Shown here: positions 11,266 through 52,442 of the stretch, piece after piece
Numbering within the stretch: the first letter of the stretch is position 1
Layout: each line of letters begins with the position of its first letter
Origin: Gemmatimonas aurantiaca T-27
GTDB lineage: Bacteria; Gemmatimonadota; Gemmatimonadetes; Gemmatimonadales; Gemmatimonadaceae
Direction: 5' to 3'
Assembly: GCF_000010305.1 (NCBI RefSeq)
Contig: NC_012489.1
Coordinates: 2,983,646 to 3,047,645, forward strand
Length of the DNA stretch: 64,000 nucleotides
Notes under the pieces: generated by a model
Told to the model about the DNA's origin: nothing
The model's database searches: none
Seen by the model: only the letters and a program-made list of their open reading frames with translations
Program-made: the position numbers and the translations under genes

Positions 11266-11385
11266 CCTCACGGTATCAGGAGGAGTCAGGAGGGAGTTGG
11301 AGAGGACGCAGATCAATAGGACCACGGTGGTCCTGCGAACTGCGTCCTCTCCAACTCCCTCCTGACTCCTCTAGAAACCGTGAGG
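11266..11385. repeat. Palindromic element A (gene-less, ~120 bp)
   Basis: Two perfect 31-bp arms (11281-11311 and 11340-11370) surround a 28-base centre that holds its own 17-base palindrome AGGACCACGGTGGTCCT (11318-11334). Outer 9-base arms (CCTCACGGT 11266-11274, ACCGTGAGG 11377-11385) extend the symmetry with a short mismatch between. The arms contain the core GGAGTTGGAGAGG, and the right edge reads TTTCTAGAGG on the minus strand. Both features are shared with the elements at 42832-43396 and 52349-52442. It lies between two minus-strand genes, in the 5' region of the amidase gene. It carries no coding capacity and no transposase. Confidence 0.85.
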
Positions 11386-41903: not shown

Positions 41904-42791
41904 ATGACTTCCAAACGACGTGATGAAGTACTGGTCGGTCTGCTGCTGCTGACAGCCATTGTCATCGGACTCGGCGGTACGATCTGGATTGCCCGCGGCG
42001 GCTTGTCGAAGGGCTATTCGATGTATGCCCGTTTCCCGTGGGGCGCTGGCCTCAAGCAGGGACAGCCGGTGCTGCTGGCCGGTGTGCAGGTGGGCTTTGT
42101 CGACGAAGTGAAGCTGATCCCCGATGGGACCATCACCGTGCGGCTGCAGGTGCAGAAGGAGCACCAGGTGCCGGCGGGCACCACGGCGTCAGTGAAGGCC
42201 AACGGCATCTTCGGCGATCAGTTGATTGCCCTGCAGCCGGTGCGTGGCGCACAGGGATACATGAGCGCCGGGGACACCATCCCGGTGGGTGCCGGATCGC
42301 CGACCACCGATCAGTTGCTCACCAAGGGCGACTCGATCGCGGCCAATGTGCAGGCCCTGACCGACGAAGCCCGGGCTCAGTTTGTGGCCGATGGTGGTGT
42401 GAAAGACATTCGGCGCACGGTGGCGGATCTGACCAAGCTGGTGGCACAGCTCAGCTCCGTGGCCGCTGCGCAGTCGGCGCAACTGACCAAGACGCAGGAG
42501 CAGTTGCGACGTACGCTGTCGAGCATCGATTCGGTGAAGGTCGACTCGAGCGTGAAGAATGTGCAGGCGATGACGGCGAGCTTCGAACAGCTCTCGCGGG
42601 AACTGCGGGAGACCAACACGAAAGTTCAGGGTGTGGTGGACAAGGTGTCCAACGGCGAGGGAACAGCGGGCAAGCTGATGAATGATCCGAAGCTGTATGC
42701 GCGGATGGATTCGCTGTTGGCGCACATCGATGCGCTGGTGTTGGATATCAACAAGAATCCTCGCAAGTACATCAATCTGAAGATTTTTTGA
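41904..42791 (+). CDS. mlaD: MlaD-like MCE-domain substrate-binding protein
   Basis: A 295-residue protein with an N-terminal anchor (VLVGLLLLTAIVIGLGGTIWIA) and one MCE domain at ~38-115 (YARFPWGAGLKQGQPVLLAGVQVGFVDEVKL and VKANGIFGDQLIALQP). A long helical C-terminal region (about 150-260) forms coiled coil, and the protein ends with ARMDSLLAHIDALVLDINKNPRKYINLKIF, seen in many Mce proteins of related bacteria. It hexamerises in the periplasm to pass lipid. It is the last gene of the lptF-lptG-mlaE-mlaD operon and is followed by a strong terminator that borders palindromic element B. Confidence 0.93.
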   Translation: MTSKRRDEVLVGLLLLTAIVIGLGGTIWIARGGLSKGYSMYARFPWGAGLKQGQPVLLAGVQVGFVDEVKLIPDGTITVRLQVQKEHQVPAGTTASVKANGIFGDQLIALQPVRGAQGYMSAGDTIPVGAGSPTTDQLLTKGDSIAANVQALTDEARAQFVADGGVKDIRRTVADLTKLVAQLSSVAAAQSAQLTKTQEQLRRTLSSIDSVKVDSSVKNVQAMTASFEQLSRELRETNTKVQGVVDKVSNGEGTAGKLMNDPKLYARMDSLLAHIDALVLDINKNPRKYINLKIF

Positions 42792-42801
42792 TCGGGTGAT
42801 C

Positions 42802-42840
42802 GGATGAAGGCGGGCGCGAAAGCGCCCGCCTTTTTTGTTT
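42802..42840 (+). terminator. Strong terminator at left edge of element B
   Basis: GGATG (42802-42806) is followed by an 11-bp stem (42807-42817 with 42822-42832, arm AAGGCGGGCGC) with a GAAA tetraloop, then TTTTTTGTTT. It terminates the lptF-mlaD operon and merges into the inverted repeat of element B. Confidence 0.9.
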
Positions 42841-43396
42841 CTAGAGGTGAACAGGGGGAGAGTTGGAGAGGGAGCGGGGGGCAGGACGGCCGGTTTCGGC
42901 GGACTAGGGCGTGCGTTCGGAGAGTGATTGGCGTTGGTAGTGGGTGCGGAGGGCGTAGAGCATGCGGCGGAGCTGGCGGAGTTCGTCGAGGGCTTCGTCG
43001 CACGTGCCGAGTGAGGGGCACAGCCTGACGGCCAGCAGCAGGTGGGTCTCGACTTCGAAGTTCGAGGCGATGGCGATGGCCAGGTGTTTTGCGACCAGCC
43101 CCGGGGAGGGTTGGCCGACGCCTTCTGCGATGTTTGCGGGAATGGATGCAACCGCGCGCCTGAGCTGTGCGGACAGCCCGGGGGCACTCCGCCCGGGAAT
43201 GCCCCGCGCCACTCGGTGCAACTCCACCGCCAGGTCCATCGACCGCCGCCAGACCTCGAGATTCGCCGGATTCTGCATGGCCCCGAATCTGGCTTCAACG
43301 CCACCACCCACTGTCACCAAATCATTCCCCGTTGGTGCATTTCCCTGCTCCCCGCCCCCTCTCCAACTCCCCCCTGTTCACCTCCAGAAACAAAAA
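42832..43396. mobile_element. Element B: inverted-repeat element carrying a four-helix-bundle gene
   Basis: Nearly identical terminal inverted repeats (left 42832-42886, right 43343-43396; about 5 differences in 55 positions, including one indel) enclose about 455 bases with a single gene. The repeats begin TTTTTGTTTCTAGAGG, continue through ACAGGGGGAG and the core GAGTTGGAGAGG, and end GCAGGA/GCAGGG. The element lies between convergent mlaD and TonB receptor genes, with a terminator pointing in from each side. I see no transposase, no clear target-site duplication and no rRNA nearby. The gene-less elements at 11266-11385 and 52349-52442 share its arms. Confidence 0.7.
42904..43278 (-). CDS. 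Four-helix-bundle protein (23S rRNA intervening-sequence/Avd-like family)
   Basis: A 124-residue protein from ATG 43278; TTG 43320 would add 14 residues. The start QNPANLEVWRRSMDLAVELHRV is the characteristic opening of this family. It is followed by PGLSAQLRRAVASIPANIAEGVGQPSP (conserved SIPxNIAEG), LAIAIASNFEVETHLLLAVRL and LDELRQLRRMLYALR, which are four amphipathic helices. Members were first found in intervening sequences of 23S rRNA genes; the related bAvd proteins bind nucleic acid in diversity-generating retroelements. Its own function is not established. Here it is the only gene inside element B. Its stop lies 17 bases from the left repeat. Confidence 0.88.
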   Translation of the reverse strand: MQNPANLEVWRRSMDLAVELHRVARGIPGRSAPGLSAQLRRAVASIPANIAEGVGQPSPGLVAKHLAIAIASNFEVETHLLLAVRLCPSLGTCDEALDELRQLRRMLYALRTHYQRQSLSERTP

Positions 43397-43429
43397 CGGG
43401 GCGGCGCCAAAGGCGCCGCCCCGTCATCC
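43396..43429 (-). terminator. Strong terminator at right edge of element B
   Basis: On the minus strand: GGATG (43425-43429 complement), a 13-bp stem (43412-43424 with 43396-43408, arm ACGGGGCGGCGCC) with a 3-base loop, then TTTTTGTTTCTGGAGG. It terminates the TonB receptor gene that ends at 43438. Confidence 0.9.
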
Positions 43430-43437
43430 CTACTCAA

Positions 43438-46400
43438 TCAGAACGCATACCGCAGCGTCAACTGGATCTGGTAGTTGTTGCTCGCCGTGTTCGGGTTCGC
43501 CGCAAACGGCCCCGTGATCGGCGCCGTCGCGGAACCGACCATGGCCTGCCGGACCGTCGCATTGAGCGTGTAGTTCGGCATGCTGCTCTCCAGCGTGCCC
43601 GCCGTGCGGCCCGACTGGTTGAACAACTGCTGGTTGTTGAACGTCGACTGCACCGGGAACTTCACGCGGCCCCAGTTCTTGTTGACCAGGTTGGCGAAGT
43701 TGAAGATGTCGAGCTGCATCGTGAGACGCTGACCGGCGACTTCCGGGATCGTCTGACGAATGCTCACATCCATACGCTGCTGGAGCGGTCCCTGGCAACT
43801 GTTGCGCTTCATGATCTGGCCGCGCTGCTTGTCGAGGCAGGACTGCGACTTGATGAAGTCTTCGAGGATCTGGCCTTCCGCAGCCGATACCGCGAATGCC
43901 GCACCGGTGCCGGTGCCGACGCGCACTTCGTTCGGATCCCGGCCGTCACGCGGCACGTAGATCGGATCGTTGCCCGCAAAGCCGTCGCCGTTGATGTCCG
44001 CGTTCACCACGTACACGTACGGCGCGCCCGACATGGCTTCGTAGAAGAACGTGACGTCCGTCTGGTTGGTCTTCCACGGCGCCGTGTACGTACCGTACAC
44101 GATGGCACGGTGCGGGCGCTGGAAGTTCGACGTCGAGACGTCGTCCGGCGCATACTCGAGGCCCGAGTACTGACGGCCATTGCGCCAGTTGGAGATCGCA
44201 CGGTCAGACGTCAGCGACTGCACGTCCTTGGCCTGCGTGTACGTGTACGCCGCCGTGGCTTCGAAGCTGGCGGCGAAACGCTTCCGCAGTTGGCCGGTCA
44301 GGTTGTAGTTGTAACCACCCTTGGAATTCGTCAGCTGGATCACGCCTTCCGTGACGTTCACAGACGGGGTGCCGTACGCCGTGAGGTACTTCTGGTTGTT
44401 GTTGTTGACCGTGCCGGTGGTCGTGATCGAGTCGGCATACATCACGCGGCCGTTGCGATCGGTGCGCGTGGCCCCGTTCAACGTGGCCGGTCCCTTCAGA
44501 TTGAGGTCACGCACGTAGAGGCCGTGGATGTCGCGGCGATACAGGCCTTCGAACGTGGCCACTACACCCCACGGCAGCTTGCGATCGAAGCCCACCGACG
44601 TGGTGAAGTTCTGCGGATACTTGAAATCCGGATCGTTCACGTTGAGACCCACGCTGCCGGCGAGGCCGGGCGTCGGGGCCGCCTGACCGGCGCAGGACTT
44701 CGGCATGGCCGACACATCCGTCGTGAAGGCCGGCGTCTGCGCACCCGAGCACGTCACCGTCACGCCGCCGAGACCGGTGTTGGCGTAGGCATTGCCGATC
44801 AGGATGAACGGCGCCTGCGCCGTGTAGATGCCCACGTTACCACGCAACTGCGTCGTCTGGTCGCCATTCACGTCCCAGTTGAAGCCGATGCGCGGCGAGA
44901 ACAGGAAGGCCGCCTTGGGCGCATAGTCCGTACGGATGTTCGCCGCACGGGCCGTGATCAGAGCATTCTGCTTCGGCGCTTCCAGGAAGTCCGGGCGATC
45001 GACACGCACACCGGCCGTGACCGAGAAATTGCGCGTGACATTCCAGAGATCCTGCACGTAGGCCGACAACTGCCGCACGTTGAACTCGGCGGCGATATCG
45101 CCACCGTTCGCGTACGAGAACGCGTAGCTCGACGGCGTGCCCGCGCGCAGCGCGGCGATGTTCGGGAACGAGTAGGCACCGTAAGCGGCGCCAGACAGGA
45201 AGTAGTTGTAGACGAACGTCTGCTCGAACCGGCCGCCGAACGTCAGGTTGTGCGCACCCAGCGGCACCGAGAAGTTGTCGGACACTTCGAAGATGCGCTG
45301 CTTGAGATCGTTGCCCGGCGAGAAGCGCTCGGTGCCGAACGTGACGGCCAGCCCCTGCACCGCCAGCGAGATTTCCGGCGCCTGCACCGGCATGTTCACG
45401 CGCTGGTCACGGATCGTATTGAAGCCGACCAGCAACTCGTTGGACGCGCCGCTGTTGAAGTTCGTGAACAACTGACCAACGAAGGAGCGATTCTTGTTCT
45501 GACGCGTGAACGAATTCGACGTCAGGCGGATACCAGCGCTCTGGTTGCCGGCGCCGTTGGCGTTGAGCGTGCCCGTGTTGCGGCTGAACTCATCCTGCTC
45601 GGCGGTGTTGTCGAGCACGCGGAACGTCGCGCGGTTGGAGCCGTTGATGCTCCAGTCGAGGCGCCCAAAGAGATTCGTGAGCGGATTGCCGCGGCTGAAC
45701 GCGCCTTCCGAACCCACGTCGAAACGGCTGGCCATGATCGAGCGGATGGCGGCGATCGAGTCGACCGACACCTGACCGACCATGTTGGTCGCGGCATTGA
45801 ACGCCGGGCCCGACGTCGGATCGGTGCGATCCTGGAATTCGGGAGCGATGAAGAAGTGCAGCTTGTCCTTGATGATCGGGCCGCCGAGGGTGAAGCCGTA
45901 GTTCTTGTAGTTGAAGCCCGACTGACGGATCTGATCGACGTTGGCCGCCATGCGCGGGTTGCGGTACGTGTACGTCGCGCCGCCCGTCCAGGTGTTGGTG
46001 CCGTTCCGCGTGACCGCGTTGACGAGCATGCCGCCGAAGTTGCCGTAGCGCACGTCGGTGGGGCTCATGAGCACCTGGAATTCCTTCACCGCGTCGACCG
46101 ACATGATACGGCCACCCGTCGCGCCGCCAGGCTGACCACCCGACGAGCCGAGGTTGAAGCGGTCGTTCTGGTTCGCACCGTCAACCGTGAAGTTGTTCAG
46201 GCGGTTGTAAGCACCACCGGCCGATGCGCCACCGTCGCGGGAGTTCACCTGCGGCGTGAGCTTCACCATTTCGGTGAAATCGCGCTGCAGTGACGGCACG
46301 CGGCGCAGCAGGGTATCAGCTACTACCGTGGCCACACCCTGACGGGTGGGCGAGAAGTCTGCGCCATTCGTCACGGCCGTCGTGGTGACGGTCTGCAGCT

Positions 46401-46755
46401 GCGTGGCGGTCTCGGACAGTTCAAAATCGATACGCGTCGCGGAGTTCAGCGTGACGCGCACACCTTCGCGGGTCTGCGGCGCATAGCCCAGCAGGCGCGC
46501 GGTGACACGGTACACGCCCACTTCGAGCCCCTGCACGAAGTAGCGACCATTGGTACGAGTAATGATGCCAGCCCTGAACCCCGTGGCGGCATTCACGATT
46601 TCGATCTGAACGTTCTCGAGCGGAGTATCACCGGTTTTGGTCACGGTGCCGGTGATGGCTCCGGACGTCAGGCCCTGAGCGTCGAGCGTCCGTGTGGCTC
46701 CGGAGAGGAGAGCCACGACGACGGCGGCGACACTGAGCCAACGCTGCATGCGCAT
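43438..46755 (-). CDS. Oar-like TonB-dependent receptor with carboxypeptidase-regulatory domain
   Basis: A 1105-residue outer-membrane protein. Signal peptide (WLSVAAVVVALLSGATRTLDAQ), then a CarboxypepD_reg domain at ~30-115 (GAITGTVTKTGDTPLENVQIEIVNAATG). A plug domain follows at ~130-240 with VADTLLRRVPSLQRDFTEMVKLTP and NNFTVDGANQNDRF, and a long beta-barrel ends in the insertion signal QIQLTLRYAF. The VDAVKEFQVLMSPTDVRYGNFGG segment is typical of the Oar/SusC-like group. These receptors import oligosaccharides, peptides or other large nutrients. There is no SusD partner, which favours the Oar type. A strong terminator follows and merges with element B. Confidence 0.93.
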   Translation of the reverse strand: MRMQRWLSVAAVVVALLSGATRTLDAQGLTSGAITGTVTKTGDTPLENVQIEIVNAATGFRAGIITRTNGRYFVQGLEVGVYRVTARLLGYAPQTREGVRVTLNSATRIDFELSETATQLQTVTTTAVTNGADFSPTRQGVATVVADTLLRRVPSLQRDFTEMVKLTPQVNSRDGGASAGGAYNRLNNFTVDGANQNDRFNLGSSGGQPGGATGGRIMSVDAVKEFQVLMSPTDVRYGNFGGMLVNAVTRNGTNTWTGGATYTYRNPRMAANVDQIRQSGFNYKNYGFTLGGPIIKDKLHFFIAPEFQDRTDPTSGPAFNAATNMVGQVSVDSIAAIRSIMASRFDVGSEGAFSRGNPLTNLFGRLDWSINGSNRATFRVLDNTAEQDEFSRNTGTLNANGAGNQSAGIRLTSNSFTRQNKNRSFVGQLFTNFNSGASNELLVGFNTIRDQRVNMPVQAPEISLAVQGLAVTFGTERFSPGNDLKQRIFEVSDNFSVPLGAHNLTFGGRFEQTFVYNYFLSGAAYGAYSFPNIAALRAGTPSSYAFSYANGGDIAAEFNVRQLSAYVQDLWNVTRNFSVTAGVRVDRPDFLEAPKQNALITARAANIRTDYAPKAAFLFSPRIGFNWDVNGDQTTQLRGNVGIYTAQAPFILIGNAYANTGLGGVTVTCSGAQTPAFTTDVSAMPKSCAGQAAPTPGLAGSVGLNVNDPDFKYPQNFTTSVGFDRKLPWGVVATFEGLYRRDIHGLYVRDLNLKGPATLNGATRTDRNGRVMYADSITTTGTVNNNNQKYLTAYGTPSVNVTEGVIQLTNSKGGYNYNLTGQLRKRFAASFEATAAYTYTQAKDVQSLTSDRAISNWRNGRQYSGLEYAPDDVSTSNFQRPHRAIVYGTYTAPWKTNQTDVTFFYEAMSGAPYVYVVNADINGDGFAGNDPIYVPRDGRDPNEVRVGTGTGAAFAVSAAEGQILEDFIKSQSCLDKQRGQIMKRNSCQGPLQQRMDVSIRQTIPEVAGQRLTMQLDIFNFANLVNKNWGRVKFPVQSTFNNQQLFNQSGRTAGTLESSMPNYTLNATVRQAMVGSATAPITGPFAANPNTASNNYQIQLTLRYAF

Positions 46756-52348: not shown

Positions 52349-52442
52349 GTTTCTAGAGGACACAGGGAGGAGTTGGAAAGATCGCAGTGTGCAGTCCTGC
52401 ATCCCGCTCCCTCTCCAACTCCTCCCTGTGTCCTGTAGAAAC
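52349..52442. repeat. Palindromic element C (gene-less, 94 bp)
   Basis: Inverted arms of 32 bases (52349-52380 and 52411-52442) match at 30 positions and read GTTTCTAGAGGACACAGGGA, followed by GGAGTTGG. The right arm continues GAGAGGGAGCGGGATGCAGGA inward, within two bases of the element B inner sequence. It is located between the convergent exporter and lipoprotein genes, with a terminator pointing in from each side. There is no coding capacity. Confidence 0.85.

Follow-up and report, generated by a model that had tools for sequence, protein, structure and literature searches.

The protein family PF05635, known mainly from intervening sequences (IVS) of 23S rRNA and here called IVP, is common near diversity-generating retroelements (DGRs; PMC10053308) and has also been noted near CRISPR adaptation modules (PMC10910872). 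In the 23S IVS of Coxiella, tandem heptamers (GACAGAT) are found at the RNase III site (PMC4990558), and the open reading frame of such IVS was proposed by Ralph and McClelland (1993, as cited in PMC4990558) to serve mobility. Heptameric repeats have also been described in other settings: arrays of GGGAATC in Xanthomonas, often arranged as inverted pairs, and of GGGGA(C/T)T in Nostoc, neither assigned a function or a partner protein (Rehm et al. 2015, PMC4692102), and the heptamer TAACTGA in Beggiatoaceae, for which no IVP gene was named and no function established (MacGregor, PMC4679880). Our search covered a collection of open-access papers, subscription journals and preprints being outside its scope, and gave no prior report linking IVP genes with dispersed palindromes or heptads.

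An IVP gene between inverted arms in Gemmatimonas aurantiaca T-27

The stretch of DNA analysed (the window; 64,000 bases) comprises bases 2983646-3047645 of the single 4,636,964-base contig of G. aurantiaca T-27 (genome G000). The features of interest, in window coordinates, are:

41904-42791, + strand: MlaD-like flanking gene (named from a reading of its translation), the marker for the orthologous site in sister species
42809-42836, + strand: terminator-like hairpin of the MlaD-like gene with its T-run, read directly from the sequence
42829-42885, + strand: left arm of the inverted repeat, family TTTCTAGAGG..CAGGGGG..GAGTTGGAGAG..GCAGGAC
42904-43278, - strand: IVP / four-helix-bundle gene, 124 aa, ATG at 43278, reading frame open from TTG 43320
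43344-43399, - strand: right arm of the inverted repeat
43396-43424, - strand: terminator-like hairpin of the TonB-receptor-like gene
43438-46755, - strand: TonB-dependent-receptor-like flanking gene, convergent (named from a reading of its translation)
11274-11378, strand not assigned: palindrome without a gene, from the same repeat family as the IVP arms
52349-52442, strand not assigned: another gene-less palindrome of this family, flanked by the terminator hairpin of a gene on one side and by a convergent hairpin on the other

The initial annotation had described inverted repeats of about 55 bp bracketing a single gene for an IVP/Avd-like four-helix-bundle protein, not a known transposase, located between two convergent protein genes and away from rRNA, and all of these points were borne out. 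The arms pair at 93% (42829-42858 with 43370-43399) and 90% (42855-42885 with 43344-43374), forming a single inverted repeat of ~55 bp, and among the 47 genes of the window the IVP gene was the only one with paired flanks above control level (score 40; next best 13). The element lies between the MlaD-like (+) and TonB-receptor-like (-) genes with no rRNA near the locus, and its identity as a 23S IVS was rejected on this ground. The left arm begins within the T-run of the MlaD-like terminator and the right arm within that of the TonB-receptor-like terminator; since both arms begin inside terminators and change rapidly, the exact insertion boundaries are blurred, and any target duplications with them. 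RNA of the whole element had a folding z-score of -9.9 relative to shuffled sequences.

In HMM searches the enclosed reading frame matched PF05635 (78.5 bits, cut-off 33.8) and TIGR02436 (86.3 bits, cut-off 24) and no other domain, a transposase domain being absent; its coding sequence most likely starts at ATG 43278 and not at TTG 43320. The predicted model is a four-helix bundle (pLDDT 97), whose closest folds are XCC0516, an IVP from Xanthomonas campestris (PDB 2gsc, Z 18.1), and BT_0352 (2rld, Z 15.9), followed by Avd in a DGR RNP complex (Z 13.8-14.0). Net charge is positive in 98% of IVP proteins, and the family is under purifying selection (dN/dS between close pairs 0.04-0.19). No IVP match was found in the phage collection. 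At two loci (L084 and L112) IVP reading frames extend into an arm, that of L112 remaining open onward into a downstream ychF-like gene.

Recurrence of armed IVP genes and dispersal of gene-less palindromes

IVP genes were present in 104 of the 200 Gemmatimonadota genomes and in 28 of the 30 genomes of the genus. When a single strict arm score was applied to all groups, with displaced control windows that were mostly coding, 83% of the Gemmatimonadota IVPs (n = 92) were found between inverted arms, compared to 1.2% of 173 displaced windows; the corresponding values were 77% (n = 26) versus 0 of 46 controls for gammaproteobacterial IVPs, and 59% (n = 73) versus 0 of 128 for a set drawn from Bacteroidota, Cyanobacteria, Acidobacteriota, Planctomycetota, Chloroflexota, CPR, an archaeon and others. 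The repeated flanking of four-helix-bundle genes, which the initial annotation had proposed to check in related genomes, is thus confirmed and extends much further, to many phyla, about 17-41% of the IVPs being without arms under the strict score. Motifs of 23S rRNA were absent from the vicinity of 98 Gemmatimonadota, 73 other-phylum and 26 gammaproteobacterial IVP loci. Left arms paired with their own right arm in 83% of cases and with the arm of another locus of the same genome in 2%; the arms are locus-specific. Similarity of arms was linked to similarity of proteins weakly (Mantel rho 0.17), mostly through orthologues. The arms usually showed a 7-nt period (lag-7 autocorrelation 0.45 and 0.58 versus 0.27 and 0.23), and the arm of the window element itself showed no clear one. 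The elements are located on the 3' side of genes and away from divergent promoters: 34 were found between convergent, 41 between tandem and 3 between divergent genes.

As the initial annotation had noted for the window, the arms also recur without the gene. A scan of the T-27 genome with an arm model identified 30 arms at 16 places, 2 of them single and the others in 14 pairs. The IVP gene is enclosed by one of these pairs; the other 13 are gene-less and include the two palindromes of the window listed above. The same model detected no arms in the sister genomes G038, G073 and G078. Most T-27 pairs face each other across a short loop, the position that the IVP gene fills at the window locus, and some face outward around another hairpin. 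At L005, L011 and L017 the arms are arranged in the opposite way, outer ends inward, around a hairpin of another kind, whose motif is ATGACGCCGTGG..CCACGGCGTCAT. The other two IVP genes of this genome are flanked by inverted arms as well, with a different sequence at each; one of them (L021, G000:C1:995518-995826) is interrupted by an in-frame TGA or frameshift and is therefore probably a decaying copy, its heptad arms being still visible.

The two arms of a palindrome evolve in concert. Arm likeness was 0.80 within one palindrome versus 0.68 between palindromes (p = 5e-5), 92% of cells were paired in eight aligned palindromes, and double compensatory cells numbered 21, compared to 8.9 in shuffles that ignore relatedness (0 of 500 shuffles).

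Heptads of the kind already reported were found at IVP genes of several bacteria, and XCC0516 comes from the Xanthomonas species with the GGGAATC arrays. In a gammaproteobacterial genome (G594), an apparently damaged IVP gene with GGGAATC arms lies between accB- and accC-like genes; this genome contains 36 matches (overlaps counted) to three GGGAATC units, gene-less inverted pairs among them, and the five other genomes compared with it contain none. Three IVP-bearing cyanobacterial genomes yielded 666, 398 and 123 matches to AGGGAAY arrays (reversed control, 0), and on a Nostoc edaphicum plasmid a heptad-armed IVP gene lies between ribonucleotide reductase genes. Two Calothrix plasmid copies of IVP share a 3.6-kb backbone and therefore do not define the ends of the element. 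In plasmid pANA02 of Anabaena sp. 90, a type I-D CRISPR operon has its cas6 and cas4 genes separated by an IVP gene with AGGTGAC-type repeats (L331), and the statistical associations of IVP with CRISPR adaptation may partly reflect insertions such as this one.

Inheritance and movement at the mlaD site

The site next to mlaD was compared in the 28 genomes of the genus in which it was located. Twelve carry an IVP gene there, with arms of several families and in one case in reversed orientation. Gene-less palindromes occupy the site in G067, G209, G212 and G054 (in the last up to the contig end), G038 has remnants, and G220, G210, G111 and G211 have neither IVP nor palindrome. The sequence following mlaD is identical in G211 and G111 (L142/L143), which seem to be very closely related; one IVP gene is found at a different site in G111, and in the tree it is distant from the other IVPs.

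When the IVP tree was compared with chromosomal site, 19 changes were counted (minimum 18; shuffled 54). The tree sorts by site; inheritance of the gene is therefore mostly in place, and a freely mobile gene was rejected as an explanation. Of the earlier idea of a master element with short derivatives, the gene-bearing unit accompanied by dispersed gene-less palindromes stands, but free mobility of the gene-bearing element does not: the palindromes disperse, and the IVP gene is mostly faithful to its site and moves rarely. Since the gene is nearly site-faithful in the genus, it is the dispersal of repeats and not that of the gene which carries our claim.

The rare movements appear to be those from S4 to S12 in G209 and G212 and those at L082/L083. 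The palindromes that G209 and G212 carry at the mlaD site match the arms of the IVP gene that these genomes have at S12 (score 106-120, versus 25-38 for the next family), and the S12 IVP branches within the clade of mlaD-site IVPs (the joint clade has support 96, its inner forks being open). The simplest reading is that the IVP gene moved or was copied to S12, the old site having kept a gene-less hairpin. A weaker match (57 versus 30-36) was obtained between the mlaD-site palindrome of G067 and the arms of its S2 IVP. Elements also flip: between G209 and G212 the S12 element is inverted within flanks that are 92-93% identical in the same direction. In G209 an identical 120-aa IVP is present at two sites whose flanks are unrelated to each other, and the 120-bp units of its arms make up several additional arrays without the gene; at L315-L319 of this genome, arrays of ~120-bp palindromic units reach up to several kb at many places, an IVP gene being known in two arrays only. 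At other sites the flanks are 94% identical and the IVPs alike in only 58% of residues; the divergence of gene and arms is thus much faster than that of the DNA around them.

Interpretation and comparison with known systems

A widespread class of bacterial repeats, of formerly unknown origin, probably has its partner in the IVP family. We lean towards a widespread two-part system resembling RAYT/REPIN, composed of an armed IVP gene and scattered hairpins, in which the protein would bind its own hairpin and aid its spread with the help of host enzymes. One mostly vertically inherited IVP gene would serve a species-specific family of palindromes, copies of which would enter intergenic DNA, mainly at the 3' side of genes and where two genes converge. 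The IVP, which is basic and Avd-like and whose solved relative is a pentamer, would bind the RNA or single-stranded DNA form of its own hairpin, promote copying of that hairpin together with ordinary host replication or repair enzymes, and by its action keep the two arms matched. The classical 23S rRNA IVS would then be a minority within this class, namely the members that reside in rRNA. The lack of a known catalytic motif in the IVP protein counts against this explanation, as do the weak link between arm and protein similarity and the share of IVPs without arms. We put forward more tentatively, as a possibility that we rate somewhat below even, the full form of the idea, namely that IVPs drive a transposase-free and RT-free spread of hairpins through recognition of their own arms, copying to new intergenic sites and arm matching, that heptameric repeats such as STRR and GGGAATC originate from them across bacterial phyla, and that the rRNA IVS is a special case.

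Among the alternatives, the one that survives best takes the hairpins as independent repeats, either REP-like or heptads made by slippage, into whose loops IVP genes insert or in which they are tolerated, the protein serving something else. The IVP gene does sit exactly at the loop position of a palindrome, known IVS replace tetraloops of 23S rRNA helices (PMC4990558), and gene-less palindromes far outnumber gene-bearing ones. A common target, however, would give the same arms everywhere, whereas the different IVP genes of one genome have different arm families, and the repeat family present tracks the IVP present in the few families and genomes checked; we regard this explanation as unlikely.

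Somewhat less probable still is that the arms act as bidirectional terminators or as RNase III stems, shield convergent or operon neighbours and are selected by the host, the IVP regulating processing and dispersal being ordinary duplication. The location of the elements 3' of genes with few in divergent contexts, the start of the arms at terminators, the folding of the element RNA far beyond that of shuffles and the cleavage of the Coxiella IVS stem by RNase III (PMC4990558) would all fit such a role. Yet ordinary terminator hairpins already adjoin the arms at the window locus, the arms are far longer than such a role requires and change family at one site between sister species, and palindrome-free sites occur (G220, G210).

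A retroelement in which the IVP, like Avd, acts as the accessory of a reverse transcriptase (RT) that copies hairpin RNA into DNA appears very improbable. The fold is the same as that of Avd, which acts in an RT complex, and the family is common near DGRs as mentioned above, but the T-27 genome gave no match to PF00078 (RVT_1) at E 1e-8, G038, G067, G073 and G078 gave none either, these five genomes carrying 3-9 IVP genes each, and only 28 of the 200 genomes of the phylum have a match; an RT-driven element was rejected for T-27. RAYT-driven repeats were likewise rejected there, the RAYT/Y1 transposase domain PF01797 having no match in this genome and being found in only 8 of the 30 genus genomes. 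Finally, chance or an artefact of low-complexity, GC-rich intergenic DNA is scarcely credible and was rejected, for even if arms are often simple 7-mers and the displaced control windows were mostly coding, the arm frequency against these controls, the contrast between cross-locus and own pairing within one genome, the position of the IVP gene as the sole armed gene of the window and the compensatory changes in the palindromes all speak against it.

With the two-part system as the preferred reading, heptameric repeats, known for decades in cyanobacteria and xanthomonads without an origin or function, gain a protein partner, and the rRNA inserts become a minority of a large class; if the IVP acts on the hairpin, repeats would spread with neither a transposase nor a reverse transcriptase. 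The pairing of gene and arms is locus-specific, which makes the idea directly testable, with many natural IVP/arm pairs for swaps.

Compared with known systems, the 23S rRNA IVS with an S23p/IVP reading frame (Leptospira, Coxiella) share the protein family and its location within inverted repeats forming one long stem, but known IVS lie inside rRNA genes, in contrast to the IVP loci studied here, and the gene-less dispersed copies are new. RAYT genes with REP/REPIN sequences are alike in that a gene is flanked by inverted cognate copies of a dispersed palindromic repeat, in their species-specific gene-less palindromes and in a gene that diverges faster than its neighbours (compare PMC2817692); the IVP differs in being a four-helix bundle and not a Y1/HUH tyrosine transposase. 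With DGRs the likeness is the shared fold of Avd, an RNA-handling RT partner, and the difference is that no RT was detected in T-27. IS elements with MITEs also combine a gene-bearing unit with terminal inverted repeats and gene-less copies, but the IVP gene encodes no transposase domain. The IVP system therefore lacks the rRNA location that defines IVS, the Y1 transposase that defines RAYT/REPIN and the RT that defines DGRs, and on a cautious reading it may be a form of IVS. Its arms resemble the heptameric repeats (GGGAATC of Xanthomonas, GGGGA(C/T)T of Nostoc, STRR and TAACTGA) in being similar 7-mer arrays, often in inverted pairs; the reports on these repeats name no associated IVP gene (PMC4692102, PMC4679880), and GGGAATC itself forms the arms of the IVP gene in the gammaproteobacterial genome described above.
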